Source: Chloroflexota bacterium (lineage in GTDB: Bacteria; Chloroflexota; Limnocylindria; Limnocylindrales; CSP1-4). Taken from it: a stretch of DNA of 64,000 bases. The stretch spans positions 1 to 64,000 of the forward strand of contig JACPOS010000013.1 of NCBI GenBank assembly GCA_016191395.1, written 5' to 3'. Made by a program: the position numbers and the translations under genes. The notes beneath the pieces were generated by a model. That model saw only the letters and a list, made by a program, of their open reading frames with translations. It was not told the origin of the DNA and ran no database searches. This document shows, piece after piece, positions 34,020 through 49,071 of the stretch. The first letter of the stretch is position 1; each line of letters begins with the position of its first letter.

Positions 34020-35519
34020 CTACCCGCCGATGGCCCGGGCGGCCCGGCCCACGATGTCCAGGAACGGTCCCGGGATCAGGCCCAGCACAACGGTGAGGAC
34101 GCTCGCGACCACGAGCCCGCCCCACATCAGCCGGCCGTGGGCCATGGCCGCGTCCTCCGAACGCGGCTCGCGCATGAACATGTAGACGACGACCCGCAGG
34201 TAGTAGAACGCCGCCGCGGCGGCGTTGATGACCGCGATGACGGCAAGGATGCCCACGGCCGTGTAGCCCGCGTTGCCGGCCTGGACCGCCGCGAGGATCA
34301 CGTACGCCTTCGCGAAGAAGCCCGCGGTCGGCGGGATCCCGGTGAGCGACAGCAGGAAGAGGGTCATGAGGATCGCGAGCCACGGCTCGCGACGCCCGAG
34401 CCCGGCGAAGGTATCGAGCCCCGAGGTCACGCCCGCACGACGCTGGATCGCCGCGACCACGGCGAACGCACCGAGGTTCATGACCGAATACGCGGCGCCG
34501 TAGTAGAGCAGGCCCTCCAGGCCCTCGATCCGGCCCGCGGCGAACGCCGCGAGACCCACGAGCATGTACCCGGTGTGCGCGATGGAGGAGTACGCGAGCA
34601 TCCGCTTCACGTTCGACTGGGTCAGGGCCACGAGGTTGCCGAGGGTCATCGTGAACACGGCGAGGATGATCACGACCTGGAGCCAGTCCACTCGGAGCGG
34701 CCCGAGGGCATCCACGAACAGCCGGAGGATCAGCGCGAACGCGCCGACCTTGGGCCCGACGGACAGGTAGCCGGTCACGGGGGTCGGCGAGCCCTGGTAC
34801 GCGTCCGGCGTCCAGTAGTGGAACGGGACGGCCGCGATCTTGAAGGCGACGCCGGTGGTCAGGAAGCCGAGGCCCAGCACCAGCGCCGGCGCCAGCGCGC
34901 CCCCGCCGGCCACCGCGGCCGCGAGGGCGCCGCTCACGCCCTCGATGCTCGTGGTCCCGGTGGCGCCCCACGTGAACGCAAGGCCGAACAGGAAGATCGC
35001 CGAGCTGAACGAGCCCAGGAGGAAGTACTTGATCGCGCCCTCGGTGGAGTAGCCGTCGCTCTTGTGATAGCCCGCGAGCATGTAGCCCGGCAGGACCATG
35101 AGCTCCAGTGCAACGAACAGGACGAGCAGGTCGCCGGCGCCCGAGATGAGCATCGCGCCGGTCATCGCGAACAGCAGGACCATCGCGAACTCGGCCAGGG
35201 GCAGGCCTCGGGCCTCCAGGTAGTCCGGAGCGAAGACGATCGTGAACGCCACGATCCCCACGAAGATCAGGTCCAGGAACGTGGTCAGGCCATCCACGAC
35301 GTACGCGCCGCCGAACGCCAGCACGCGCAGCGTGCCGTCACCGCCGGCCACGGCCTGGCCCGTCGTGAGCGTGAGCGCCGCCACCAGCGCGAGACCGCCG
35401 AGGCTGACGACGAGGACCGGCCCGCGCCTGCCGGGCACGGCGATGTCGACGAGCAGGACTGCGATCGCCACCGAGACGGCCGCGATGAACGGCCCCAGCG
35501 CGAGGATGTCGTTGGGCAT
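34020..35519 (-). CDS. nuoN: NADH-quinone oxidoreductase subunit N (499 aa)
   Basis: NuoN is one of three antiporter-like proton-pumping subunits in the membrane arm of complex I. About 14 helices are seen, with the conserved core YLLLGSFSSAIFLFGLAF and KIAAVPFHYWTPDAYQGSPTPVTGYLS holding the key lysines, followed by KRMLAYSSIAHTGYMLVG. The ATG at 35519 overlaps the nuoM stop by one base (TGATG). It is the last gene of the complex I operon. Confidence 0.96.
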   Translation of the reverse strand: MPNDILALGPFIAAVSVAIAVLLVDIAVPGRRGPVLVVSLGGLALVAALTLTTGQAVAGGDGTLRVLAFGGAYVVDGLTTFLDLIFVGIVAFTIVFAPDYLEARGLPLAEFAMVLLFAMTGAMLISGAGDLLVLFVALELMVLPGYMLAGYHKSDGYSTEGAIKYFLLGSFSSAIFLFGLAFTWGATGTTSIEGVSGALAAAVAGGGALAPALVLGLGFLTTGVAFKIAAVPFHYWTPDAYQGSPTPVTGYLSVGPKVGAFALILRLFVDALGPLRVDWLQVVIILAVFTMTLGNLVALTQSNVKRMLAYSSIAHTGYMLVGLAAFAAGRIEGLEGLLYYGAAYSVMNLGAFAVVAAIQRRAGVTSGLDTFAGLGRREPWLAILMTLFLLSLTGIPPTAGFFAKAYVILAAVQAGNAGYTAVGILAVIAVINAAAAAFYYLRVVVYMFMREPRSEDAAMAHGRLMWGGLVVASVLTVVLGLIPGPFLDIVGRAARAIGG

Positions 35520-37168
35520 CAGGCCGCGCCCTCGACGGTCTGGACGGCGGAGCCGCCATCGTCGGTGGGGCGGCGTGGGCGGAGCGCGAGCAGTCGCCAC
35601 GCGATGACTGCGACCACGAAGCCGAGCCCGGCCGCGACCCAGATGGGATCCACGGTGATCGCCGTCCCCTGGCCGACCGCGGCCAGGGCGACCTTCGCGG
35701 GACCCGAGACGAGGTTGAGCAGGATCCCCGGGAACAGGCCGAACACGACCACGAGCGCGCCGAGCGGCGCGAGCGTCAGGATCTCCGTCGCGGTCATGTC
35801 GGAGAGGTGGTGCTTGAGCCCGAGCAGGAACGCCGACGGCTCACCGAGCACGACCCGCTGGAACATCCACAGCAGGTACACGGCGCCCAGGATCATCACG
35901 ACCGCCGCGACCGCCGCGACCCACGGGTTTGCGACGAACGAGCCAATGAGCGTCAGGAACTCGCCGATGAAGCCGGACAGGCCCGGCAGCCCCGCGGAGG
36001 CGAAGACGAAGAATCCGAGGGTCGCGGCATACACGGGGGTGAGGGCCGCCAAGCCCCCCATCTTCGCGATCGTCCGGTCGTGCGTACGTTCGTAGATCAC
36101 GCCGACGAGGAGGAACAGGGCGCCGGTGATCAGGCCGTGATTGACCATCTGGAGGATCGCCCCGTCCATCGCCTGCTCCTGGAACACGAAGATCCCGAGC
36201 GTGACGAAGCCCATGTGGCTGACGGACGAGTAGGCGACGAGCTTCTTGAGGTCCGGCTGGACCATGGCCACGATCGCGCCGTAGATGATCGCGATCAGGC
36301 TGAGCACGATGATCAGCGGCGCATAGGTATGCGACGCATCCGGGTACAGCGACAGGCTGAACCGGATGAACCCGTAGCCACCGAGCTTCAGGAGCACGCC
36401 GGCGAGGATCACGGAGCCGGCGGTCGGCGCTTCCACGTGCGCGTCCGGCAGCCAGGTGTGGAACGGGAACATCGGGACCTTGATCGCGAAGGCAAGGAAG
36501 AACGCGGCGAAGCCCAGGAGCTGGAGCCCGTCGGCGAAGCCGGTGGTGCCGGCATAGGCCTTGAGCGCCTCGAAGTCGAACGCGCCTGCCCAGGCGCCGC
36601 CGTGGGCGCCCTGGTAGGCGAACGCGGTGGCGAGGATCGCCACGAGCATCAGCAACGAGCCGACGAGCGTGTACAGGACGAACTTGATCGTGGCGTAGAT
36701 CCGGTTCGCGCCGCCCCAGATCCCGATGATCAGGTACATCGGGACGAGCACGACCTCCCAGAAGATGTAGAAGAGGAACGTGTCCAGGGCGAGGAACACG
36801 CCGAGCATCCCGACCTCGAGGATCAGGAAGGAGATCATGTATTCCTTGATCCGGGTCTGGATCGGGGCGAAGCTCGCCAGGATGCTGATCCAGGACAGGG
36901 TCGTCGTGAGCACGATGAGCGCCAGCGACAGCCCGTCGATGCCGAGCTTGTACTGGATGCCGAAGATCGGGATCCAGTCCAGCTTCTCGACGAGCTGGAA
37001 GCCCTGCACGCCGGCGCTGAAGCCGACTGCCACCCACAGCGAGATCACCCACGCGATCAGCGATGTCACGAGGGCGAGGATCCGCGCCCAGCGCGCCGGC
37101 GCGAAGCCGATGACGAGCGCGCCGACGAGCGGCGTGAAGACGACCGCGCTCAGGAGTCCGACCGTCAT
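35519..37168 (-). CDS. nuoM: NADH-quinone oxidoreductase subunit M (549 aa)
   Basis: NuoM is an antiporter-like pumping subunit. Landmarks are GIDGLSLALIVLTTTLSWISI, the essential glutamate helix FYIFWEVVLVPMYLIIGIWGG, KVPMFPFHTWLPDAHVEAPT and KKLVAYSSVSHMGFVTLGIF. The ATG at 37168 starts three bases after the nuoL stop. The C-terminal 50 residues after the last core helices are a little longer than usual. It works with NuoL and NuoN in proton translocation. Confidence 0.97.
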   Translation of the reverse strand: MTVGLLSAVVFTPLVGALVIGFAPARWARILALVTSLIAWVISLWVAVGFSAGVQGFQLVEKLDWIPIFGIQYKLGIDGLSLALIVLTTTLSWISILASFAPIQTRIKEYMISFLILEVGMLGVFLALDTFLFYIFWEVVLVPMYLIIGIWGGANRIYATIKFVLYTLVGSLLMLVAILATAFAYQGAHGGAWAGAFDFEALKAYAGTTGFADGLQLLGFAAFFLAFAIKVPMFPFHTWLPDAHVEAPTAGSVILAGVLLKLGGYGFIRFSLSLYPDASHTYAPLIIVLSLIAIIYGAIVAMVQPDLKKLVAYSSVSHMGFVTLGIFVFQEQAMDGAILQMVNHGLITGALFLLVGVIYERTHDRTIAKMGGLAALTPVYAATLGFFVFASAGLPGLSGFIGEFLTLIGSFVANPWVAAVAAVVMILGAVYLLWMFQRVVLGEPSAFLLGLKHHLSDMTATEILTLAPLGALVVVFGLFPGILLNLVSGPAKVALAAVGQGTAITVDPIWVAAGLGFVVAVIAWRLLALRPRRPTDDGGSAVQTVEGAA

Positions 37169-37171
37169 CGC

Positions 37172-39190
37172 CTACCGTCCCAGGATCACGAAGTACGAGC
37201 CGGCCATGGCGATCAGCCCCAGGGCGATGCCGAGCGCGTAGTTCTGCACGCGCCCGGTCTGCACGCGGGCGAGGCCGCCGCCGCTCCGGCGGGTCAGGGC
37301 GCCGATGCCGTTGACGACGCCGTCGACGACGTTGCGGTCGAACCAGGCGAGGGCGTTTGCGATCCGCCCGCCGACCACGACGAAGACGAGGTTGTTGATG
37401 TCGTCGAACCACCAGTTGTTGGCCGACGCGCGGTACAGGAAGGGCACGCGCTTGGTGAGGCTCGCGACGAGGGCTGGCCGGCTGGCGCCCCTGATCGGAC
37501 CGATCTCCACGCCGAACAGTCGCCACGCCGCGAGCATCCCCGCGAGCGCGACCGCGATGCTGATCGCCAGCAGCATTCCATCGATGCCGGCGAGCTGGAA
37601 GGCCTCCTCGCGGCGGCCGAGAATCTCCTGGCCGTGCTCGAAGATGGGCTTGAGGTAGCCCCCGAGCAGGCCCTCGCCCTCCATCCCGAACAGCGGCCCG
37701 AGCGGCGGCCCCGGCCAGGTCAGCGCGATTCCGAGCAGGACCGACGGGATCGCGAGGAGCCAGAGCGGCACCGTCATGGTCCGCGGTGACTCGTGGATCT
37801 TGGGCTCCACGGCCGGGTCCACCCGGCTCTTTCCCCAGAACGTAAGGCCGATGAGCCGGAACATGTAGAACGCCGTCATCACCGCGACGAGGATTCCGAT
37901 CGCCCAGACCCACTGGAATCCGAGCTTGAAGCTCTCGCCAAGGATCTCGTCCTTGCTGAAGAACGCCGCGAGGGGCGGGATCCCGGACATCGCGATCGCG
38001 CCGATGAGCATGGTTCGGTACGTGTGCGGGAGCTTCTTCCGGAGGCCGCCCATCTTCCGCATGTCCTGTTCGTCGTGGACGGCATGGATCACGGATCCCG
38101 ACGCGAGGAACAGCAATCCCTTCGTGAAGCCCTGCGCCATGAGGTGGAAGATCGCCGCCGTAAAGGCGCCGACCCCGAGGGCGGCGAACATGTAGCCGAG
38201 CTGGCTCAGGGTCGAATATGCGAGCACGCGCTTGATGTCCGTCTGGGTCAGCGCGATCGATGCGGCGAGGATCGCGGTGAAGATGCCGATCGCCGCGACG
38301 AACGCCATGGCCTCCGGCGCGCTGGCGAAGATCGGGTTGGCACGGGCGACGAGGTAGACGCCCGCGTTGACCATCGTCGCGGCATGGATCAGCGCGGAGA
38401 CCGGCGTCGGGCCCTCCATCGCGTCCGGCAGCCAGACGTGCAGCGGGAACTGGGCGCTCTTGCCGACGGCGCCCGCGAAGAGCAGCAGCGCGATGACCCA
38501 GACCGGGATGCCTCCCGCGAACGCCAGGCTTCCGGTCGCGCCCATCGAGGCCGGGCCGACCAGCAGCTCGATCGAGTCGCGGATGTTGAGCGTGCCAGTG
38601 TTGACCCAGATCGCCATGATTCCCAGGGCGAAGCCGACGTCGCCGACGCGGTTCGTGATGAACGCCTTCTTGCTCGCCTCGGCGGCGGTCCGCTTGCGGT
38701 ACCAGAACCCGATCAGCAGGTAGCTCGACAGGCCGACCAGCTCCCAGGCGAGGAACAGCACGAGCCAGCTGTCCGCCAGGACGAGCAGCAGCATCGAGAC
38801 CATGAACAGGTTGAGATAGACGAAGAACCGCCAGTAGCCGGGGTCGTGGCGCATGTAGCCGATCGAGTAGACGTGCACGAGCATGCCGACCGTCGTCACG
38901 ACGACGAGGAGCACGGCGGTCAGGTTGTCGACGAACAAGCCGAAGTCCACCGTGAAGGTCCCCGCCGGGATCCACTGCCAAAGGGTGACCGCGATGCCAT
39001 CGGTGCCGGCGGGCAGCACGTCGTGGAAGGTGGCGATGACGTACATCGCGACCAGCCACGAACCCACCACCGGTGCGACCGGGATCCAGAACGCGTTGAG
39101 CCCGAGCCGCCGCCCCACCAGCGCCGTGACCAGGAAGCCCGTGAGCGGCAGCGCGATGATCAGGAAGACGAGCATCTGGTGGAGCGTCAT
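37172..39190 (-). CDS. nuoL: NADH-quinone oxidoreductase subunit L (672 aa)
   Basis: NuoL is the distal antiporter-like subunit with the long amphipathic helix that runs along the membrane arm. Conserved blocks are GLFVDNLTAVLLVVVTTVGMLVHVYSIGYM, FLAWELVGLSSYLLIGFW, KSAQFPLHVWLPDAMEGPTPVSALIHAATMVNAGVYL (read as adjoining parts) and DIKRVLAYSTLSQLGYM. Its ATG overlaps the nuoK stop (ATGA). The length is in the normal range of 610-680. Confidence 0.97.
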   Translation of the reverse strand: MTLHQMLVFLIIALPLTGFLVTALVGRRLGLNAFWIPVAPVVGSWLVAMYVIATFHDVLPAGTDGIAVTLWQWIPAGTFTVDFGLFVDNLTAVLLVVVTTVGMLVHVYSIGYMRHDPGYWRFFVYLNLFMVSMLLLVLADSWLVLFLAWELVGLSSYLLIGFWYRKRTAAEASKKAFITNRVGDVGFALGIMAIWVNTGTLNIRDSIELLVGPASMGATGSLAFAGGIPVWVIALLLFAGAVGKSAQFPLHVWLPDAMEGPTPVSALIHAATMVNAGVYLVARANPIFASAPEAMAFVAAIGIFTAILAASIALTQTDIKRVLAYSTLSQLGYMFAALGVGAFTAAIFHLMAQGFTKGLLFLASGSVIHAVHDEQDMRKMGGLRKKLPHTYRTMLIGAIAMSGIPPLAAFFSKDEILGESFKLGFQWVWAIGILVAVMTAFYMFRLIGLTFWGKSRVDPAVEPKIHESPRTMTVPLWLLAIPSVLLGIALTWPGPPLGPLFGMEGEGLLGGYLKPIFEHGQEILGRREEAFQLAGIDGMLLAISIAVALAGMLAAWRLFGVEIGPIRGASRPALVASLTKRVPFLYRASANNWWFDDINNLVFVVVGGRIANALAWFDRNVVDGVVNGIGALTRRSGGGLARVQTGRVQNYALGIALGLIAMAGSYFVILGR

Positions 39191-39504
39191 CGGCGCATCG
39201 CGTCGTACTCGTCCACCAGCGGCGTCTTGCGGTTGCGGAAGATCGCGATGACGATCGCGAGGCCCACGGTCGCCTCGGCTGCGGCCACCGCCATGACCAT
39301 CAACGCGATGATCGCGCCATCGAGCTGCAGGCTGGGGATGAACGCGCCGAACGCCACGATGGCGAGATTCACCGCGTTGAGCATGAGCTCGATGGACATG
39401 AGCATGGAGATCGCGTTGCGGCGCGCGAGGAACCCGAACGTGCCGATCGCGAACAGCATCCCCGACAGCGTCAGGTAGAAGTTCAGGTCGTTGGCGAGGC
39501 CCAT
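39187..39504 (-). CDS. nuoK: NADH-quinone oxidoreductase subunit K (105 aa)
   Basis: NuoK is a three-helix membrane-arm subunit. The family signature is LARRNAISMLMSIELMLNAVNL, with the functional glutamate in helix 2 (SIELMLN) and the second glutamate in AAAEATVGLAI. The ATG at 39504 overlaps the nuoJ stop by one base; longer upstream frames are antisense to nuoJ. The normal family length is about 100. Confidence 0.96.
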   Translation of the reverse strand: MGLANDLNFYLTLSGMLFAIGTFGFLARRNAISMLMSIELMLNAVNLAIVAFGAFIPSLQLDGAIIALMVMAVAAAEATVGLAIVIAIFRNRKTPLVDEYDAMRR

Positions 39505-40088
39505 CAGGCGCCCTTCTCGCGCTTGGCGAGGAAGACGCCGCCGATCACGGCGGCGAGGAGCAGCACGCCGACTGCCTCGAGCACCAGCACGTAGTTCTGG
39601 AACAGCGCATGGGCGACGTACACGGTCGCGGAACGGATGTGCTCGGAGACCTCGCCCCAGCTCGTTCCGAAGGCGGCCACGGACACCAGGACCGCGATCA
39701 CGATCGCCGCGATCGCTGCGGGTGCGGCCTGCGTCTGGAACGTGAGTCGGGCGCTGCCCACCTTCTCCTGGGTGAGCATGATCGCGAACAGGATCAGGAC
39801 GCTGATCGCGCCGATGTACACGATCACCTGGGCGGCCGCGACCATCGGCGCGCCGAGCGAGACGTACAGGCCGGCGAGCGACAGGAAGCACACGATCATC
39901 GCCAGGCCGCAGCGGATGATGTCGCGCATGGACACGACCGCGATGCCCGCGGCGATCATCAGCGTGGCGAGGCCGGCGACGAGCGCGTCGTCGAACGAGC
40001 CGCCAAGGAGGATCAGCACGATCAGGGCAGGCGTGGTGACGATCGCGCCGGCCACCGCCGCGGCGATGAGATACAGCCAGGCTCGCAT
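39504..40088 (-). CDS. nuoJ: NADH-quinone oxidoreductase subunit J (194 aa)
   Basis: NuoJ is a five-helix subunit at the junction between hydrophilic and membrane arms. The diagnostic helix 3 block is VAAAQVIVYIGAISVLILFAIML. The start is ATG 40088, eight bases after the stop of the flavoprotein fusion gene. The N-terminus MRAWLYLIAAAVAGAIVTT is a slightly longer leader helix than in many homologues. Confidence 0.94.
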   Translation of the reverse strand: MRAWLYLIAAAVAGAIVTTPALIVLILLGGSFDDALVAGLATLMIAAGIAVVSMRDIIRCGLAMIVCFLSLAGLYVSLGAPMVAAAQVIVYIGAISVLILFAIMLTQEKVGSARLTFQTQAAPAAIAAIVIAVLVSVAAFGTSWGEVSEHIRSATVYVAHALFQNYVLVLEAVGVLLLAAVIGGVFLAKREKGA

Positions 40089-40096
40089 GCGGTCGG

Positions 40097-42793
40097 CTAC
40101 TTCAGGTGGGCGTGCGCGCCGCCGCCGGACTCGCCGTGCGAGTGCCCACGTTCGAGCGTTGCCGGCAGGACGGTGAGCAGGCGGTCCGACTGGACGTAGC
40201 GGCCCGCGTCGATTGCCCGCTGAAGCCAGTCGCGCTCCTTGCGGATGTACGTGACCTCGGTCTCGCGATCCACCTGGGCCATGGCCATCAGGTCGATCAT
40301 CGGCTCCTCGCGGCTGGAGTGGGCGAGCTCGAACTCGCCGCCGTCGCGGAGCGCGTCGTACGGACAGGCATCCACGCAGATGCCGCACAGGATGCAGCGG
40401 CTCTCGTCCACCTCATACTTCTGGAGGACGCGCGGCTTGGGCATGAGCGCGCCCGTCGGGCACGTCTCCGCGCAGCGCCCGCAGGACACGCACGGCGTGT
40501 CGTTGAGGCTCATGTCCAGCGGCGTCGTGACGAGGGTGTCGAAGCCGATCCGCATGAAGTCGTAGCACGCGGCCCCCACGACCTCGGAGCAGACCTGCGC
40601 GCACCGGCCGCAGTCGATGCAGCGCGACGGCTCGCGCAGGATGAAGGCGTGGGAATCGTCGCGGACGTAGTCGTGGTTGATGCCCGTGAACCGGTTCTCG
40701 TTGACCGAGCGGAGGCCCGCGCCGTCGTGCGCGTTCGGCTCCAGGGTCGTGAGGGTGGTGCCGTACTCGATCCCGAGGCGGCGCAGGTCGCAGTAGCCGA
40801 TGGCCTCGCACGTGCACTGGAGGCAGCGCGTGGATTCGGCGACGATCTCCTCGCGGGAGTACGGGATCTCGTACTCCACGTAGTTGTGGTTGCGCTCCTC
40901 GGCGTCCATGGCCTTGAGCCGGTAGCGCGGCTCCTTCACCTCGGCGGTGAACGGCACGATGGACAGGAACTCCGGCTGCGGCTCGGCGAGTGTCTGGCGA
41001 GTGCGGATCGCGGCCAGGTCGTTGCCGCGCAGGAACGCGTCCACCGCGTACGCGGAGCGGCGGCCCTCGGCGATCGCCTGGACCACCGTCGCCGCGCCGA
41101 CCCGGACGTCGCCCGTCGCGAACACGCCGGTGCGGCCGGTCTCGAAGGTCACGGCGTCGGCCTGGAGGCGGCGGTTCTTGGTCGCCTTGGTGCCCTGCGA
41201 GCCCGGGCCCATCCACGTCAGCTCCGGCCCCTGGCCGATGGCGAGCAGGACGCGGTCGCACGGGATGATGAACTCCGTGCCGGGCGCAGGCTCCGGCCGG
41301 CGGCGTCCTGACGCGTCGGGCGCGCCGAGGGCCATCCGGATGAACTCGACGCCGGTGACGTTGTTGTCCTTGTCCGTCACCACCCGAACGGGGCCGGCCT
41401 GGAAGATCGCGGTGACGCCCTCCTCGATCGCTTCGTGGACCTCGTTGGACGCCGGCATGTCCTTCATGTCGCGGCGATAGACGAGGGTCACTTCCTTCGC
41501 GCCCTGGCGGATTGACGTGCGCGAGCAGTCCATGGAGGTGAAGCCGCCACCGATGACGACGACGCGCTTGCCCTTGTGCCCCGGGTACGGGAGGCCGAGG
41601 GTGGCGGTGCGCAGGTACTCCAGGCCGTCGAGGACCTCAGGTGCGTCCTCGCCGGGGATGCCCAGCTTGTTCGTGTCGTAGCAGCCGATCGCGATGACCA
41701 CCGCATCGAAGCCCTGGTATTGAAGGTCGTCCAGGGTGAAGTCGCGGCCCAGGCCCTGGTTGCAGACGATCCTGCCGCCGAGCCGGGTCACGCTCTCGTA
41801 CTCGGCCTCGAGCACCTCGACCTTGGGCAGGCGGTACTGCGGGATGCCGTAGCGAAGCATCCCGCCGGGGGCCGGGTCGCGCTCGAACACGGTGACGTCG
41901 TGGCCGGCGAGCAGCAGGTAGTAGGCCGCGGCCATGCCGGCCGGGCCGGAGCCGATGACGGCCGCGCGGCGGCCCGTCGCGGGCTGGCGATCGAACGGGA
42001 GCGGCGGGTCGACGTCCTCGTCCAGCATCGACTTGATGACCATGTCGCCCGCGTACCGGTGGCTGTCGCGGATCGCGATCGCCTCGTCCACCTCGTCGCG
42101 GCGGCAGTGGTCCTCGCACGGGGCGGGGCACACGCGCCCGAGCACGGAGGGGAACGGGATCGTCCGCTTGAAGATCCGGGTGGACTCGCGGAAGTTGCCC
42201 TCGGCGTTCTGCTTGAGGAAGCCCGGGATGTCGATGTGGCTGGGGCACTTGTTCTGGCAGGGCGGCAGGCAGTACGCGTTGTGGTCGGAGAAGATCAGCT
42301 CCAGGTTGGTGCGCCGCAGCCGGCGGACCTCCTCGGTCTGGGTCTGGACCTTCATGCCGTCCTCGCACGTGCGCGAGCACGAGATCGGCGGATGGTCCTC
42401 GCCCTCCACCTCGACCACGCACATGCGGCACGCCCCGAAGCCCGGCAGCTTGGGCTCGTAGCACAGGGTGGGGATCTCGATGCCGTTGTCGCGGCAGACC
42501 TCGAGGATCGTCTGGCCCTCCAGGCCCTCGATCGTGCGCCCGTCGACCTCGATCCGGATGCGCGGGGTGGACTGCGGGCGCTGCGGCGCTTGGGTCGTGA
42601 TGAGACGCTCGGCGTGCGAGTCCTCCAGGGGCACGAGCGTGTCCCGCTTGATCGGCTGATCGGGGCGGCTCTCGCCGCGGGCCTCGTGGTCGCGGGGCAC
42701 GTGCGGCGCCGGGCGCTCGCCAGCACCGCTGCCGCCGCTGCGTGACGCGGCGGGGCTCACCTCGCTCGGGGGCCGTTCGATCAGGTCGGTCAT
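40097..42793 (-). CDS. NuoG-position fusion: [2Fe-2S] domain + GltD-like flavoprotein + polyferredoxin (898 aa)
   Basis: After a disordered N-terminus, residues 78-155 form a NuoG-type [2Fe-2S] domain (Cys111, Cys122, Cys125, Cys139). Residues 170-235 hold the GltD-type cysteines (175, 179, 183; 222, 226, 230). The FAD motif VIGSGPAGMAAA (279-290) and a second nucleotide site VVVIGGGFTSMD follow, as in the NADPH-binding small subunit of glutamate synthase. The C-terminus has three [4Fe-4S] motifs: CIDCGRCAQVC, CVSCGRCAETCP and CILCGICVDACP. The molybdopterin-fold domain of NuoG is absent. It sits exactly where nuoG belongs, overlapping nuoF (ATGA). I infer that it feeds NAD(P)H electrons into the complex. 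Confidence 0.85.
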   Translation of the reverse strand: MTDLIERPPSEVSPAASRSGGSGAGERPAPHVPRDHEARGESRPDQPIKRDTLVPLEDSHAERLITTQAPQRPQSTPRIRIEVDGRTIEGLEGQTILEVCRDNGIEIPTLCYEPKLPGFGACRMCVVEVEGEDHPPISCSRTCEDGMKVQTQTEEVRRLRRTNLELIFSDHNAYCLPPCQNKCPSHIDIPGFLKQNAEGNFRESTRIFKRTIPFPSVLGRVCPAPCEDHCRRDEVDEAIAIRDSHRYAGDMVIKSMLDEDVDPPLPFDRQPATGRRAAVIGSGPAGMAAAYYLLLAGHDVTVFERDPAPGGMLRYGIPQYRLPKVEVLEAEYESVTRLGGRIVCNQGLGRDFTLDDLQYQGFDAVVIAIGCYDTNKLGIPGEDAPEVLDGLEYLRTATLGLPYPGHKGKRVVVIGGGFTSMDCSRTSIRQGAKEVTLVYRRDMKDMPASNEVHEAIEEGVTAIFQAGPVRVVTDKDNNVTGVEFIRMALGAPDASGRRRPEPAPGTEFIIPCDRVLLAIGQGPELTWMGPGSQGTKATKNRRLQADAVTFETGRTGVFATGDVRVGAATVVQAIAEGRRSAYAVDAFLRGNDLAAIRTRQTLAEPQPEFLSIVPFTAEVKEPRYRLKAMDAEERNHNYVEYEIPYSREEIVAESTRCLQCTCEAIGYCDLRRLGIEYGTTLTTLEPNAHDGAGLRSVNENRFTGINHDYVRDDSHAFILREPSRCIDCGRCAQVCSEVVGAACYDFMRIGFDTLVTTPLDMSLNDTPCVSCGRCAETCPTGALMPKPRVLQKYEVDESRCILCGICVDACPYDALRDGGEFELAHSSREEPMIDLMAMAQVDRETEVTYIRKERDWLQRAIDAGRYVQSDRLLTVLPATLERGHSHGESGGGAHAHLK

Positions 42794-44109
42794 GCGGTGG
42801 CTCCCAGGCGGATCGGGCGGCAGACGCCTGCCGGACACTCGCCGCGCAGCAGGTGCGCGTCGAGCTCGTCGCGGAAGTAGCGCAGGCCGCTGAGCATCGG
42901 CAGTGTGGCAAGGCGCTCGTGATCGCACAGCGCCGAGCCGACGACGTCGGCGGAGAGGTCGACGAGGAGGTCCAGGTCGCCTGCGCGCGACGTGCCGGTC
43001 GTGAGGCGCTCCCCGATCTCGGCGATCCGGCGGACGCCGATCCGGCACGGGATCGTCTTGCCGCACGCCTCGTCGGCGGAGAAGCGGGTCAGCAGCCGCG
43101 CGACGTCCACGACGCAGGCACGATCGTCGGCGGCGATCACCGAGCCGGACCCGATGTGGGCGCCCACCGAGCGCAGGTCGTCGAACGTATACGGCGTCTT
43201 CAGCTCGCTCGGCGGCAGGATCCCGCCGGTAGGCCCGCCGACGACGACGGCCTTCAGCGACCGGCCCTTCGCGAATCGGCCGCCAAGCTCGACGATCGCC
43301 TCGAGCGGCGTGCCCATCGGGACCTCCGCCACGCCGCTGCGCTCTGGCCCACGGACGTCCACGAGGATCGTGCCGGGCGCGGCGCCGAAGCCGATCGCCC
43401 CGAACGCCTTCGCATGGTGCCGGATGATCCAGGGCACGGACGCGAGGGTCTGCACGTTCTGGACGACCGTCGGGGCGCCGTGGAAGCCGCGCGTCGCCGG
43501 GTGTGGCGGGCGCTGCTCCGGCTGGCCGCGCTTGCCGTCAAGGGCCTTCAGGAGGACCGTCTCCTCGCCGAGCATGTACGCACCCTGGACCGGGCGGACC
43601 TCGATCTCCACGCGCCGACCGCTGCCGAGGGCGTCCTCGCCGATGAAGTTGCGCGCCGTCGCGGCCTCGATCGCGGTCTCCAGGCCCTTGATTGCCTGGG
43701 TCGCGGAGGCGCGGACGGAGATGTACCCGGTCTCCGCGCCGATGGTGAACGCCGCGATCGCCACGCCCTCGATGACCGCGTACGGGTCCGTCTCGAGCAG
43801 CGTCCGGTCGGTGCTCGTGGCGGGGTCCGCGCCGTAGCCGTTCGCGACGACGTAGCGCTCCTTCGCGGGGGTCTCTGCCGCAGCCTGCCACTTCGCGGCC
43901 GTCAGGTGCCCGGCGCCGCCGCGGCCCCGCAGCCCGCTCGCCTTGACCTCCGCGATCGTCCCTTCCGGGCCGAGCTCGCGGACCGACCGGCGGAGGGCCT
44001 CGAAGGCGCCGGCCTTGATCGCATCGTCGAGATCCGCCGGCTTCGAGGCGCCGGCGCGCGCCAGCAGGATGGACGGCCAGCCCTTGGCGGAGGAGAGGAT
44101 CGTGCTCAC
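42790..44109 (-). CDS. nuoF: NuoF-like subunit with altered NADH/FMN loop and lost cluster ligand (439 aa)
   Basis: The fold is clearly NuoF: RGRGGAGHLTAAKW (61-74), GEETVLLKALDG, TRGFHGAPTVVQNVQTLASVP, the SLBB region and the C-terminal cluster domain. Two functional sites are changed. The usual N-A-D-E-x-E-P-G loop that holds FMN and NADH reads NGYGADPATSTDR (90-102). The SCGxCxPCR motif reads ACGKTIPCR, so Cys349 and Cys355 remain but position 352 is Thr; the fourth ligand Cys395 is present. NADH oxidation here is doubtful. GTG at 44109 overlaps the upstream gene (GTGA), and its stop overlaps the fusion gene (ATGA). Confidence 0.88.
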   Translation of the reverse strand: MSTILSSAKGWPSILLARAGASKPADLDDAIKAGAFEALRRSVRELGPEGTIAEVKASGLRGRGGAGHLTAAKWQAAAETPAKERYVVANGYGADPATSTDRTLLETDPYAVIEGVAIAAFTIGAETGYISVRASATQAIKGLETAIEAATARNFIGEDALGSGRRVEIEVRPVQGAYMLGEETVLLKALDGKRGQPEQRPPHPATRGFHGAPTVVQNVQTLASVPWIIRHHAKAFGAIGFGAAPGTILVDVRGPERSGVAEVPMGTPLEAIVELGGRFAKGRSLKAVVVGGPTGGILPPSELKTPYTFDDLRSVGAHIGSGSVIAADDRACVVDVARLLTRFSADEACGKTIPCRIGVRRIAEIGERLTTGTSRAGDLDLLVDLSADVVGSALCDHERLATLPMLSGLRYFRDELDAHLLRGECPAGVCRPIRLGATA

Positions 44110-44783
44110 GCGTCGCCTCTCGACTTCCCGCCGAGCGAGGCGCCGAGCGCATCGAGATAGCCCTGGTCCGTGGCGCGCCGCGCGCGGACCTCCTTCGACT
44201 GGGCCTTGGCGGACGGCGGCTCGAAGCGCAGGTGGCCGTAGTACGAGGCGGTGCCGTAGATCGTTGCGTACCACGCCCCGGTGCGTTCGCTGATCCGCTT
44301 CAGCGCGGCGACGGGCAGGAACCCGAAGGTGTCCTGCGTGTCCTCGAGGATCTGGAGCATCCGCTTGGGGTCGTGGTCGAAGCGCTCCAGGATCTCGTCA
44401 ACCGTCTCGATGTCGAACGGGGCGAAGTGCTCGTAGGCGCGATCTGGCACGGTCCGTCCGGATCGCCTGAGCGCCGATTCCTCGCGTCGCTCGCCATACG
44501 TCTCGGGAGGGCCCCAGTGGACGTGGAAGCGGCCCTTGGTGTCCATGCCGCCCATGTCGATGCACTCGATGGGGCACGCCTGGGCGCATTGGAAGCACGT
44601 CTCGCACTTGAGGCCGCCGTACTCGTCGTACAGCAGCTGGAGCCGGCCACGGAACTTCGTGGCCACGTCGGCCGGCATCTCCGGATACATGACCGTGGCC
44701 TTGGGGGCGAAGAACCGGCGCAGGGTCAGCGCCATGCCCTTGACCATGCCCAGGCCCGGGACGAGGCCGGTCAGGAGGCTCAC
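44106..44783 (-). CDS. NuoI/NuoE hybrid subunit with a single [4Fe-4S] motif (225 aa)
   Basis: Residues 1-90 match the N-terminal half of NuoI: LRRFFAPKATVMYPEMP, KFRGRLQLLYDEYGGLKC and one cluster motif C60-x2-C63-x2-C66-x3-C70-P. The second NuoI cluster motif is missing. From about 115 the chain resembles the helical N-terminus of NuoE (MLQILEDTQDTFGFLPVAALKRISERTG, IYGTASYYGHLRF). It ends before the NuoE [2Fe-2S] domain and has none of its cysteines. The reading frame is uninterrupted, so this is a true hybrid, not a frameshift. It overlaps nuoH and nuoF by four bases each (GTGA). Confidence 0.8.
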   Translation of the reverse strand: MSLLTGLVPGLGMVKGMALTLRRFFAPKATVMYPEMPADVATKFRGRLQLLYDEYGGLKCETCFQCAQACPIECIDMGGMDTKGRFHVHWGPPETYGERREESALRRSGRTVPDRAYEHFAPFDIETVDEILERFDHDPKRMLQILEDTQDTFGFLPVAALKRISERTGAWYATIYGTASYYGHLRFEPPSAKAQSKEVRARRATDQGYLDALGASLGGKSRGDA

Positions 44784-46141
44784 TTCGGGGCCGCCTTCAT
44801 GGCGTCGATGACGAGGACCGCGGCCGCGGTGACGAACAGGTTGAGCAGCGCGGCCGGCAGCAGCCACTTCCAGGCGAAGCCCATGAGCTGGTCGATGCGC
44901 ACGCGCGGGAGCGTGCCACGCATCCACACGAACAGGAACACAAGGGCGAACGCCTTGCCGACGAACCAGAACAGGCCCGCGACCCAGTCGAAGTTGATGT
45001 ACGCCCACAGGCTGAAGATGCCGCCCGCGATCACGTTGAACAGGACGAAGCCGAGGATCAGGGCGACCCACCAGCGCGTCTTGCTGCGGAACAGGTAGAA
45101 CGGCGCTGCGAGGGCGAGGGTCCCGACCACCGGCACGATCGCGATGAGGATCACGAGCCACAGGCCCAGCGAGCCGGGGTCGACGATCCAGCTGATGTGC
45201 GGCGAGGGGAACGGCGCGTTCCAGCCGCCCATGAACAGCACGACGGTGATCGCCGAGATGATGAACACGTTGATGTACTCGGCGAAGAAGAAGAACCCGA
45301 AGCGCATCCCCGAGTACTCCGTCGCGAAGCCGGCGACGATCTCCGAGTCCGCCTCGGTCAGGTCGAACGGGGTCCGGTTCGCTTCCGCCGTCGCGGCGAT
45401 GGCGAAGATCAGGAAGCCCAGGGGCTGGCGGAACATGAACCAGTCCGTGAACCAGCCGGTCCGCGACTGCTGGATGACGATCTCGTTGAGGCTCATCGTC
45501 CCGGCGAGGATCACGAGCCCCACGACGGACAGCGTCAGCGGGATCTCGTAGCTGACGATCTGGGCCGCGGACCGCAGGCCGCCGATCAACGAGTACTTGT
45601 TGAAGCTGGACCAGCCGCCCATCAGCAGCCCCACCACGGTCATGCCGCCGACGGCGAAGAAGTAGAGCAGCCCGATGTTCATGTCCTGGCCGTACAGGCC
45701 GGGCGCGAACGGCAGCACGAGCGCGCTCAGCACCGCTGTGGAGAAGACGACGACGGGCGCCCAGGTGAACACCACCGCGTCCGCCTTGCCCGGCGTGAAG
45801 TCCTCCTTCATGAGGACCTTCAGGCCGTGCACCGTGGACAGGAGGGTGCCCCACGGCCCCACCCGGTCCGGCCCGATCCGGAGGTTCATGAGCGCGATGA
45901 TCTTCATCTCCATGTAGATGATCACGAAGGCCATTGGAACGAAGATCAGCATCAGGATCGTCACGGAGAACACGAACCGGACGATCGGCAGGTTGAAGAT
46001 CAGGATGTCCAGGATCTGCTGCCCGAACAGCGCGATCGTGATCACGAGCCCGAGCGTCAGGACGCCGAGCAACGGGATCAGGATGAACAGCGCCTTCCCG
46101 GGCAGGGTCAACCTGTCCCATGTGCGGGCCACGACGGTCAC
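44780..46141 (-). CDS. nuoH: NADH-quinone oxidoreductase subunit H (453 aa)
   Basis: NuoH forms much of the quinone chamber at the foot of complex I. Landmarks are YMEMKIIALMNLRIGPDRVGPWG, the loop EANRTPFDLTEADSEIVAGFATEYSG and FFFFAEYINVFIISA. It has about eight to nine helices. GTG at 46141 overlaps the nuoD stop (GTGA). Some 20-30 residues at the N-terminus (VVARTWDRLTLPGKALFIL) precede the core and are longer than in E. coli. Quinone reduction machinery therefore looks intact. Confidence 0.96.
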   Translation of the reverse strand: MTVVARTWDRLTLPGKALFILIPLLGVLTLGLVITIALFGQQILDILIFNLPIVRFVFSVTILMLIFVPMAFVIIYMEMKIIALMNLRIGPDRVGPWGTLLSTVHGLKVLMKEDFTPGKADAVVFTWAPVVVFSTAVLSALVLPFAPGLYGQDMNIGLLYFFAVGGMTVVGLLMGGWSSFNKYSLIGGLRSAAQIVSYEIPLTLSVVGLVILAGTMSLNEIVIQQSRTGWFTDWFMFRQPLGFLIFAIAATAEANRTPFDLTEADSEIVAGFATEYSGMRFGFFFFAEYINVFIISAITVVLFMGGWNAPFPSPHISWIVDPGSLGLWLVILIAIVPVVGTLALAAPFYLFRSKTRWWVALILGFVLFNVIAGGIFSLWAYINFDWVAGLFWFVGKAFALVFLFVWMRGTLPRVRIDQLMGFAWKWLLPAALLNLFVTAAAVLVIDAMKAAPK

Positions 46142-47397
46142 TTGTCGACGCCGCCCATGATCGGATCGAGGGAGGCCATGACCGCCATGCAGTCGGCGAG
46201 CAGGCAGCCTGGCAGCAGGGCGCCGACGGCCTGGAGGTGGATGAAGCTGGGGTCGTGGATCTTCAGCCGGAACGGCTGGTCCGTGCCGTCGGAGATGGCG
46301 TACGCCCCGTAGACGCCGCGCGGCCCCTCCACCCCGGACCACGCGCGACCGGGCCGCGGGCGGATCAGCCGCGGGAGCTTGGCCATGATCGGGCCGTCGG
46401 GCATCTTGTCCAGGCACTGGTCGATGATCCGGATGCTCTGCTTGATCTCCTCCATCCGGAGCAGGTAGCGAGCCAGGCAGTCGCCCTCGGTGCGGGTCGG
46501 GATGTCGAACTCCAGCTCGGGGTAGATGGAGTACGGGTGCGTCCGGCGCAGGTCGAACGGGACCCCGGTGGCGCGCAGGTTCGGGCCGGTCATGCAGTAG
46601 CGCAGGGCCATCTCGGTGTCGATCACGCCCAGGCCGGCGGCGCGGCGGACGAAGATCTCGTTCTCGTTGAGGAGGCCCATCCCGGCCTCGATCTGGCCGA
46701 CGGCCCGGCTCATCCAGTCGCCCAGGCGGCTCATGAACTCGTGGTTCAGGTCGCCGTTCACGCCGCCGATGCGGAAGTAGTTGAAGAGCATCCGCTGGCC
46801 GGTCAGCGCGGCGAGCATCTCCACGATCTCGTCGCGTTCGATGAACGACCACAGGATCGGGGTCAGGCCGCCCAGGTCCAGCGCGAACCAGCCGAGGAAC
46901 AGGGCGTGGCTGGCGATCCGGTTCAGCTCCCCGGAGAGGACGCGGATGTACTCCGCCCGCCGCGGCACCTCGACGTCCAGCAGCCGCTCGTAGGCGGTGA
47001 CCGGCGCCCACTCGCAGAACAGCGAGGAGATGTACTCGAGGGGGTCAACCTGGCTGATCGTCTGGTGATAGTCCGCGTTCTCGACGAGCTTCTCGACGCC
47101 GCGGTGGAGGTAGCCCAGGACCGGGTCGATGTCCACGACGCGCTCGCCGTCGAGCTTCAGGACCACGCGGAGCACGCCGTGCGTCGATGGGTGCTGCGGC
47201 CCCATGTTCAGGAACATCTCGCCGTCGCCGAGGGTGTAGAACTCGGCCTCGCGCTCCGTGCGCGGCGTGTACGGCGGGATGGGCTCGTAGAAGTCGTAGT
47301 CGTCCTGGAGCAGCACGTTCGGGTCGTCGGTGGAACGGTGCGTGCCCTTGGGGGCGGGACGGGGTTCGCCCGAGCGGGGCGCGGTCTCGGTCGTCAT
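46138..47397 (-). CDS. nuoD: NADH-quinone oxidoreductase subunit D (419 aa)
   Basis: NuoD lines the quinone-binding site together with NuoB. It shows MNMGPQHPSTHGVLRVVLKLDGE (in two parts), the quinone-site histidine loop GPQHPSTHG, IGGVNGDLNHEF, RGVYGAYAISDGTDQPFRLKI and the terminal SLDPIMGGVDK. The start is ATG 47397, with an N-terminal extension of about 55 residues that is Pro/Thr-rich. NuoC and NuoD are separate genes here, not fused as in E. coli. Confidence 0.97.
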   Translation of the reverse strand: MTTETAPRSGEPRPAPKGTHRSTDDPNVLLQDDYDFYEPIPPYTPRTEREAEFYTLGDGEMFLNMGPQHPSTHGVLRVVLKLDGERVVDIDPVLGYLHRGVEKLVENADYHQTISQVDPLEYISSLFCEWAPVTAYERLLDVEVPRRAEYIRVLSGELNRIASHALFLGWFALDLGGLTPILWSFIERDEIVEMLAALTGQRMLFNYFRIGGVNGDLNHEFMSRLGDWMSRAVGQIEAGMGLLNENEIFVRRAAGLGVIDTEMALRYCMTGPNLRATGVPFDLRRTHPYSIYPELEFDIPTRTEGDCLARYLLRMEEIKQSIRIIDQCLDKMPDGPIMAKLPRLIRPRPGRAWSGVEGPRGVYGAYAISDGTDQPFRLKIHDPSFIHLQAVGALLPGCLLADCMAVMASLDPIMGGVDK

Positions 47398-47405
47398 CTC
47401 GATCC

Positions 47406-47951
47406 TCAGGCTCCCGTCCGGCGCAGGACGCCGGGCGCGGCATCAACCGGGCTGCGCGAGCGCTCGACGTGGCGCACGCCGGCGCCCGTCGACCGTGCCG
47501 CGTCGTCCGGAAGGTAGAAGTCCTTCCGCAGCGGGAAGCTCGTGTAGTCGGGCGGCATGTAGATCCGCCGGAGGTCGCGGTTGCCCTCGAAGATGATCCC
47601 GAACATGTCGTACGTCTCGCGCTCCATCCACTCGGCGCCCTGCCACAGGAAGGTCACCGACGGGATCCGCGGCTCGTCGCGGGACAGGCCCTCCGCGATC
47701 ACGCGCAGCCAGTCCGTGGTCGTCGCGCTCCACAGGTGGTAGACGACCTGCATCTCCTTGCCCGTGTCCACGCCGGCGAGGTCTGCGAGCATCGTGAACG
47801 CGAGGTCCGGCTCGTCGTGGAGGCTGCGCAGCACGTCGATGACGTCGCCCGCGCCGATCCGGATCTCGGTCTGGTCGTGGCGCTGGCGCGCCGCGCCGTG
47901 CAGGACGCTCTCGAAGCGCGCCTCCAGCCTGCGCGCAAGGGTTCGATCCAT
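47406..47951 (-). CDS. nuoC: NADH-quinone oxidoreductase subunit C (181 aa)
   Basis: NuoC is the 30-kDa-type subunit in the connecting part of the peripheral arm. It has the block FTMLADLAGVD, YHLWSATTTDWLRVIAEGL and the signature EWMERETYDMFGIIFEGNRDLRRIYMPPDYTSFPLRKDF (read as adjoining parts). Start ATG 47951; it follows nuoB by five bases and precedes nuoD by eight. The ORF is open further upstream but that part is antisense to nuoB. Confidence 0.95.
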   Translation of the reverse strand: MDRTLARRLEARFESVLHGAARQRHDQTEIRIGAGDVIDVLRSLHDEPDLAFTMLADLAGVDTGKEMQVVYHLWSATTTDWLRVIAEGLSRDEPRIPSVTFLWQGAEWMERETYDMFGIIFEGNRDLRRIYMPPDYTSFPLRKDFYLPDDAARSTGAGVRHVERSRSPVDAAPGVLRRTGA

Positions 47952-47956
47952 CGCCC

Positions 47957-48694
47957 TCAGACCCCGGCCGGCACGGTTGGGCCGATCGCGCGCTCCGGCC
48001 AGTGGCCGCGGCGATCCTTGATCAGCTGCTGGAGCTTCATCATCCCGAAGATGAGGCCCTCCGGGCGGGGCGGACAGCCGGGCACGTACACGTCCACGGG
48101 CATGATCCGGTCGATGCCCTCGACCGTCGCGTAGCTCCGCTTGTAGCGGCCACCCGAGCAGGTGCAGTCGCCCATCGCCACGCACCACTTGGGCTCGGGC
48201 ATCTGCTCCCAGAGGCGGAGGAGCGGCCCGGCCATCTTGGTGGTGAGGGTGCCGGCGACGATGAGCACGTCCGCTTGGCGAGGGCTCGCGCGGAACGGGA
48301 AGGCACCCCACCGGTCGATGTCGTTCTTGGATGTCGCGAAGCTCATCATCTCGATCGCGCAGCAGGCGAGACCCGACAGCAGCGGCCACAGGCTGTTCGC
48401 CCGAAGCAAGTCCAGGACATAGTCCGCCTTCGTCGGGATGATCTCGAGGAGCCCGGACCACCGGGCGTCGTCATGGCGACCGGCGCCGCTCGCATCGAAC
48501 TCCGCGAGGTGCGTGATCGCCGCCGGCTGGCCGCCACTGTAGGCGTTGGGGTCCGCGGGGTTCCAGAGGTCGTTGCGGAGCACGATGGGTTCCGTGACGG
48601 CCGTCGATCCGGGAACGATCAGGGCCGAGGAGGTCGCGGCCTTCGCCGCCACCTCGGCCGGCGTGGGCGCCCACGGCTTCTTCGTCTCGGTCAT
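47957..48694 (-). CDS. nuoB: NADH-quinone oxidoreductase subunit B (245 aa)
   Basis: NuoB carries cluster N2, the last iron-sulfur centre before quinone. The ligands are in [18 protein letters not shown] (usually GxCxxxGG) and [11 protein letters not shown], so all four cysteines remain. The core begins near residue 85; a hydrophilic extension of about 75-80 residues precedes it and has no counterpart in E. coli NuoB. ATG at 48694 overlaps the nuoA stop (ATGA). The presence of N2 shows that the quinone end of the chain is normal despite the altered input end. Confidence 0.96.
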
Positions 48695-49071
48695 CGGCCG
48701 GGCCCGCCCCAGCTGAGCACGCCCTTGCGCCACGCGTAGCCCAGGCCAAGCAGCAGGATCGCCACGAAGATCAGCATGCTGGTGAAGCCGGTGATCGGGT
48801 CCGGCAACGACCGGAAGACCAGCGCCCAGAGGTAGATGAAGATCACCTCGATGTCGAACGCCACGAACAGCAGGGCGTAGATGTAGAAGCTCAGGCCGAA
48901 CCGCCCGTGCGTGTCGCCATACGTGTCGATGCCCGACTCGTACGGCATTCCCTTGTGCATGTCGCCGCGGTTGCGGTGCGAGATCAGCCACGCGGCGCCG
49001 AAGGTCAGGAACGTGAACGACCCGGCGGCGAAGGCAAACCCGATGACGTACCAGATCCCGGTCAAGGCCAT
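48691..49071 (-). CDS. nuoA: NADH-quinone oxidoreductase subunit A (126 aa)
   Basis: NuoA is a three-helix membrane subunit at the arm junction. The family block is [44 protein letters not shown] (read in parts: [22 protein letters not shown]). The start is ATG 49071. It is the first gene of the complex I operon, and the 500 bp upstream holds its promoter. Confidence 0.95.

Follow-up and report, generated by a model that had tools for sequence, protein, structure and literature searches.

Complex I is usually viewed either as an enzyme for NADH whose NuoEFG input is fixed, as in the canonical 14-subunit NDH-1 of E. coli and Thermus, or as a form without a dedicated input, as in the 11-subunit complex I-like enzymes and cyanobacterial NDH-1, whose donors are ferredoxin or unknown and whose NuoI is intact (PMC11238625). 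A second relevant group is formed by the Stn/NfnABC enzymes, which are electron-bifurcating transhydrogenases (8oh5, 9bov, 9n5u; PMC10482914). In StnC, electrons follow the cluster path C7-C6-C5-C4-C3, with C1 and C2 in a dead-end FdhF domain, and Lys170, strictly conserved in Stn proteins, ligates the [4Fe-4S] cluster proximal to flavin adenine dinucleotide (FAD) (PMC10482914). Here we describe a nuo operon from a Chloroflexota bacterium of the class Limnocylindria (assembly GCA_016191395.1, contig JACPOS010000013.1, positions 1 to 64,000; this whole stretch is hereafter the window) that combines features of both groups. We consider it likely that the operon encodes a proton-pumping NAD(P)H:quinone oxidoreductase, probably driven by NADPH, in which the input arm has been replaced by a Stn/NfnABC-type module and electrons enter at a GltD flavin.

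The operon lies on the minus strand at approximately 34.0-49.1 kb, in the order A-B-C-D-H-IE-F-fusion-J-K-L-M-N, where IE is a NuoI/NuoE hybrid. The input genes are three overlapping open reading frames on the minus strand at 40097-44783, the start of the fusion overlapping the nuoF stop, and their features are as follows.

44106..44783, minus strand: IE, hybrid gene joining the N-terminal half of NuoI to the helical part of NuoE
44541..44738, minus strand: first half of NuoI with CxxCxxCxxxCP motif 1 (TIGR01971 positions 1-65)
44214..44402, minus strand: N-terminal helical part of NuoE, without the [2Fe-2S] ligands (PF01257 positions 1-63)
42790..44109, minus strand: modified nuoF with a StnB/HydB-like core and an eroded pocket for NADH and flavin mononucleotide (FMN)
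43819..43842, minus strand: flavin/NADH loop of NuoF, NADEGEPG changed to NGYGADPA
43045..43065, minus strand: cluster N3 motif of NuoF (canonically CGxCxPC) with the second Cys replaced (CGKTIPC)
40097..42793, minus strand: fusion of 898 residues (NuoG-type [2Fe-2S], GltD flavoprotein, polyferredoxin and C-terminal half of NuoI)
42332..42559, minus strand: [2Fe-2S] domain of the fusion (Fer2_4)
41024..42268, minus strand: GltD/NfnB/StnC-type domain of the fusion, with two [4Fe-4S] clusters and FAD and NADP(H) sites
42059..42061, minus strand: His245 of the fusion, aligned with StnC Lys170, which in StnC ligates the FAD-proximal [4Fe-4S]
40433..40645, minus strand: NuoG/HydA-like ferredoxin pair of the fusion
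40292..40432, minus strand: second half of NuoI with motif 2, in the fusion (TIGR01971 positions 71-117)

A sequence-only reading of this DNA had noted the changed NADH/FMN loop of NuoF and the presence, in the NuoG slot, of a [2Fe-2S], GltD and polyferredoxin fusion, and both are borne out, the latter by Fer2_4, Fer4_20, Pyr_redox_2 (GltD) and several Fer4 domains. Its statement that no normal nuoE or nuoG exists stands insofar as the window operon carries no separate NuoE, NuoG or NuoI gene, but NuoE has been rebuilt, with its helical part in the hybrid, and is not simply missing. The same reading overlooked the splitting of NuoI; judged by their domain matches, NuoI and NuoE are both rebuilt rather than absent. 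Relative to canonical NDH-1, homologues of NuoF and of the [2Fe-2S] part of NuoG are kept, whereas the molybdopterin-like domain of NuoG is replaced and a GltD flavoprotein inserted. The operon equally departs from the 11-subunit enzymes, which have no NuoE, NuoF or NuoG homologues: it retains a conserved NuoF together with conserved parts of NuoE and NuoG, and its dedicated flavoprotein input shares a polypeptide chain with a piece of NuoI. As in those enzymes, NADH oxidation at NuoF is predicted to be lacking.

Searching the PDB by sequence with the fusion aligned about 700 residues (2Fe-2S, GltD and NuoG clusters) to Caldicellulosiruptor NfnABC (9bov, 550 bits), Sporomusa StnC (8oh5, 482 bits) and Thermococcus NfnA (9n5u, 478 bits), and the same top hits were returned by Foldseek for the predicted fusion model, whose GltD domain matches NADP(H)-bound NfnI with a root-mean-square deviation of 2.8. 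Sequence and predicted fold together point to a StnC-like protein with an FAD/NADPH site. Its FAD, YRR and Fe-S motifs are retained in 117 to 123 of 123 full-length fusion reads, and the [2Fe-2S] cysteines and H245 are invariant in a 30-row alignment. Two features set it apart from the Stn proteins. First, the position of Lys170 is occupied by His in all 126 readable orthologues. Second, the FdhF domain is absent and half of NuoI occupies its place, so that what was a dead end could become an exit to cluster N2.

Two further occurrences of related proteins may be recorded here. Large-genome relatives of family f21 carry a second, solitary copy of the fusion (L054 9717-12116; L055 9595-12009) with no NuoB, hybrid or NuoF adjoining; the fusion may be used independently there. 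In 1 Mb Chloroflexota genomes (f51 and f89; L060 8676-12293), [2Fe-2S] and GltD parts are joined to a formate-dehydrogenase-like domain, and the StnC Lys170 position is Lys.

The window NuoF, which contains a Complex1_51K domain, scores 376 and 367 bits against StnB/HydB in the PDB and at most 271 bits against any NuoF. Nineteen of 93 columns that are nearly invariant in 18 catalytic-type NuoF, HydB and StnB sequences have been lost in modified NuoF, many of them in the NADH/FMN pocket, where the residues lost are F159, D183, E184, G188, F190, R289, F294 and N308 (StnB numbering). The canonical pocket (NADEGEPG, three Phe, NNVET) is absent, as are the FMN/NAD site and C-terminal ferredoxin domain of StnB, the protein ending just past the CxxxxC linker motif. 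An intact NADEG(D/E)PG occurs in none of the 107 readable sequences among 119 NuoF reads. Of 112 readable reads, mostly from Limnocylindria, 101 have Thr, Ser or Ala in place of the second N3 cysteine and 11 retain it; across 16 modified NuoF that were compared, this loss, which leaves the window and its sub-clade one Cys short of a four-Cys N3 cluster, is confined to families f1, f2 and f5. All 16 fall on one side of a single branch in the NuoF tree (support 100/98), which indicates a single origin of the modified form.

NuoE has likewise lost its standard N1a cysteine set, which the window hybrid shares neither with canonical complex I (four-Cys [2Fe-2S]) nor with the thioredoxin-type [2Fe-2S] of StnA. 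The second cysteine pair (CLGxC) appears in none of 89 hybrid reads; families f2 and f5 retain a thioredoxin-like remnant with the first pair only, and in f4, f21 and others this domain is gone altogether.

NuoI, a single chain with two [4Fe-4S] motifs in canonical complex I, is cut exactly between its two ferredoxin motifs, the halves lying on the hybrid and on the C-terminus of the fusion. Against the 121 positions of TIGR01971 the hybrid covers 1-65 and the fusion end 71-117. Of 16 genomes searched, the 14 from Limnocylindria have NuoI only as two halves in two different genes (1-65/74 and 69/71-112/117), and nothing in them scores above the family cut-off. An intact NuoI occurs in the other two genomes, both from relatives that also have a canonical complex I. 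In ordinary 2[4Fe-4S] ferredoxins the fourth Cys of each cluster comes from the other motif. Since the motifs here sit on separate polypeptides, N6a and N6b would each be ligated by two chains. The split supports a physical tie of both fusion and hybrid to the Q-module, as far as this can be read from the sequences.

The remainder of the complex is largely canonical, in gene order as well as content.

48691..49071, minus strand: nuoA (orthologues in the same order in L047, L048 and L042)
47957..48694, minus strand: nuoB, all four N2 cysteines retained
47406..47951, minus strand: nuoC
46138..47397, minus strand: nuoD, HPSTHG and quinone-site Tyr retained, 25-residue loop (SMEALIHHFKLYTEGY region) deleted
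44780..46141, minus strand: nuoH
39504..40088, minus strand: nuoJ
39187..39504, minus strand: nuoK
37172..39190, minus strand: nuoL
35519..37168, minus strand: nuoM
34020..35519, minus strand: nuoN

The membrane arm (A, H, J, K, L, M, N) and Q-module (B, C, D) are thus complete, as first read, and NuoB is normal at its N2 cysteines. The description of all these subunits as normal does not extend to NuoD, whose 25-residue loop is missing in all modified complexes and present in canonical NuoD; the deletion may mark a changed interface.

Taken together, these observations suggest the following route. NADPH, or less likely NADH, would pass hydride to FAD in the GltD-like domain, from which electrons would reach the two GltD [4Fe-4S] clusters, the first with His at its unusual ligand position, then the NuoG-like clusters of the fusion and N6a/N6b, rebuilt from the two half-NuoI pieces on two polypeptides. 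Their onward path would lead to N2 in NuoB and to quinone in NuoD/H, driving pumping by the membrane arm, which is intact at the sequence level. NuoF would have ceased to oxidise NADH and would persist as a structural piece; of NuoE only the helical part is left, in some cases together with traces of the second domain. The earlier suggestion that diaphorase function has moved from NuoE/F to the GltD-like unit is supported by the erosion of the NuoF pocket in all modified lineages, together with the near-invariance of the FAD, NADP(H) and Fe-S residues of the fusion, and it agrees with each of the comparative tests made. We lean, with less assurance than for the route just given, towards a class-wide NADPH:quinone complex I that pumps protons, with a retired NADH site, a StnC-like graft that has His at the ligand position of its FAD-proximal [4Fe-4S], and N6a/N6b ligated from two polypeptides.

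The sequence-only reading knew of no characterised complex of this make-up, and we likewise found no earlier description in the open-licence PubMed Central literature, where the papers on Limnocylindrus and Ktedonobacteria say nothing about it. If the proposal is correct, the input arm of complex I can be replaced while the pump stays, and respiration in these bacteria is tied to the NADPH pool; the complex would offer a natural experiment on the roles of NuoF, N1a and N3, and a NuoI split so that its clusters form between chains would put ferredoxin assembly to a striking test. Abundant freshwater bacteria (Ca. Limnocylindrus, Ca. Aquidulcis) belong to the class. Related versions are also found in other Chloroflexota, some of them with single-contig genomes and probably cultured, which makes the proposal testable.

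Several points weigh against the main reading. NuoF retains the GRGG flavin-phosphate loop, Lys164 and the GEE motif (StnB numbering) and may still bind flavin, and the N3 cysteines are kept in 10 of the 16 modified NuoF (f4, f13, f21, f33, f35 and f38), all outside the window sub-clade. The preference for NADPH over NADH is drawn from homology. Single-chain AlphaFold models of hybrid and fusion, built from shallow alignments, are confident in the NuoE helices and in the GltD core and nowhere else, the ferredoxin parts having predicted local distance difference test (pLDDT) values below 50.

The alternative that survives best, though we think it unlikely, is the same rebuilt complex with NADH as donor at the GltD flavin and physiology unchanged. 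Enzymes of the GltD fold can differ in cofactor preference, and an NDH-2 dehydrogenase (PF22366) was not detected in several class genomes, so that NADH would need some exit; this absence is weak evidence because the model also misses the E. coli enzyme. We favour NADPH, over ferredoxin as well as NADH, because the site resembles those of NADPH-using StnC and NfnB, with the YRR and neighbouring arginines retained, and because PntB, which offers a route from NADH to NADPH, is near-universal in the class (54 of 55 Limnocylindria sampled, including 1.1 Mb genomes, versus 99 of 345 other Chloroflexota sampled). This co-occurrence lends weak support, being essentially one phylogenetic comparison, and the flavin may in fact take NADH or have a mixed preference.

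It is less probable still that NuoF remains at work with its pocket repurposed for another substrate, giving a complex with two inputs (confurcation or Stn-like bifurcation). The retained loop, Lys and GEE motif and the persistent N3 cysteines would fit such a role, as would the recurrence of new residues, for example Tyr at StnB D183 in 13 of 16. However, the pocket varies between sub-clades, the second N3 Cys is gone from most reads, and neither the StnB C-terminal ferredoxin domain nor the NuoE/StnA [2Fe-2S] remains; in Stn the latter is required for bifurcation (PMC10482914).

An NADPH-oxidising complex could in principle also run in reverse in vivo, proton-motive force and quinol being used to make NADPH. 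Both complex I and GltD chemistry are reversible and NADPH is needed for biosynthesis, but PntAB is present and more direct, and no complex I other than the modified one turned up in these genomes; we regard this as improbable.

Variation in operon structure bears on whether the fusion set belongs to complex I at all. The full order of the window operon was read in loci of families f1, f2 and f5. Families f3 and f4 instead have two complementary operons, A-C-H-J-K-L-M-N and B-D-IE-F-fusion (complete in two f4 genomes, partial in f3), with one NuoD per genome. In f13, f21, f35 and f38 the modified set (B-IE-F-fusion, with A-C-D-H elsewhere) stands beside a separate canonical complex I. From these three patterns, among them the mutually complementary operons of two families, we take the fusion set to be part of complex I. 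On a contrary view, IE, F and fusion would be a separate, soluble Stn-like transhydrogenase housed in a nuo operon, and complex I a ferredoxin-fed 11-subunit form. Homology of F and fusion to StnB and StnC, and the existence of 11-subunit complex I-like enzymes (PMC11238625), speak for it, but such a complex I would be left without NuoI, whose only copies in the 14 Limnocylindria genomes are the halves on IE and fusion; NuoB and NuoD are encoded with IE-F-fusion in the split operons, and the StnA [2Fe-2S] ligands and StnB ferredoxin domain are missing. We consider this very improbable. One minor observation concerns G249, where a canonical-looking A-B-C-D-F-G start and a modified A-B-C-D-H-IE-F-fusion lie about 10 kb apart on one 28.9 kb contig (L059 152-5279; 11001-19020).

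The rebuilt operon is a real, conserved arrangement: the idea that a single metagenome bin holds a chimaeric assembly or decaying pseudogenes, which the 31 contigs and 89.9% completeness of the window genome might have suggested, is refuted by the recurrence of the fusion in 155 of 177 Limnocylindria genomes and of the gene order in three families, with related fusions in other Chloroflexota families, including single-contig genomes. Named genomes with matches include Ca. Limnocylindrales, Ca. Limnocylindrus and Ca. Aquidulcis bins, among many records labelled 'Chloroflexi bacterium'. The wider genome scan used patterns from close relatives and its matches filled up with the same class, so this distribution applies within Chloroflexota.

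A second intact nuoEFG in the same genome had been named at the outset as an observation that would overturn the proposal. In the window genome none was found. At least 12 of 22 relatives searched, mostly near-complete genomes, have exactly one full-length NuoF, the modified form (these genomes include G158, 99% complete, and G170, G176, G141, G142, G148, G127, G125 and G107), and G162 and G156 have extra NuoF fragments only. In two family members (G064 and G065, 91% complete) neither the fusion nor a full PF01512 protein was found, with PntB present; these are perhaps gaps, or else a real loss of complex I. The only other NuoF of the window genome is a NuoEF fusion, which we rejected as a spare input for complex I since it sits in a formate dehydrogenase cluster (G000, contig C9; L008 829-6789). 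The large subunit encoded in this cluster reads through an in-frame TGA at NRTUHAPSVAGL, a probable selenocysteine, and the N-terminal [4Fe-4S] part of the enzyme has a downstream gene of its own, where it is attached to a NuoG-like piece.

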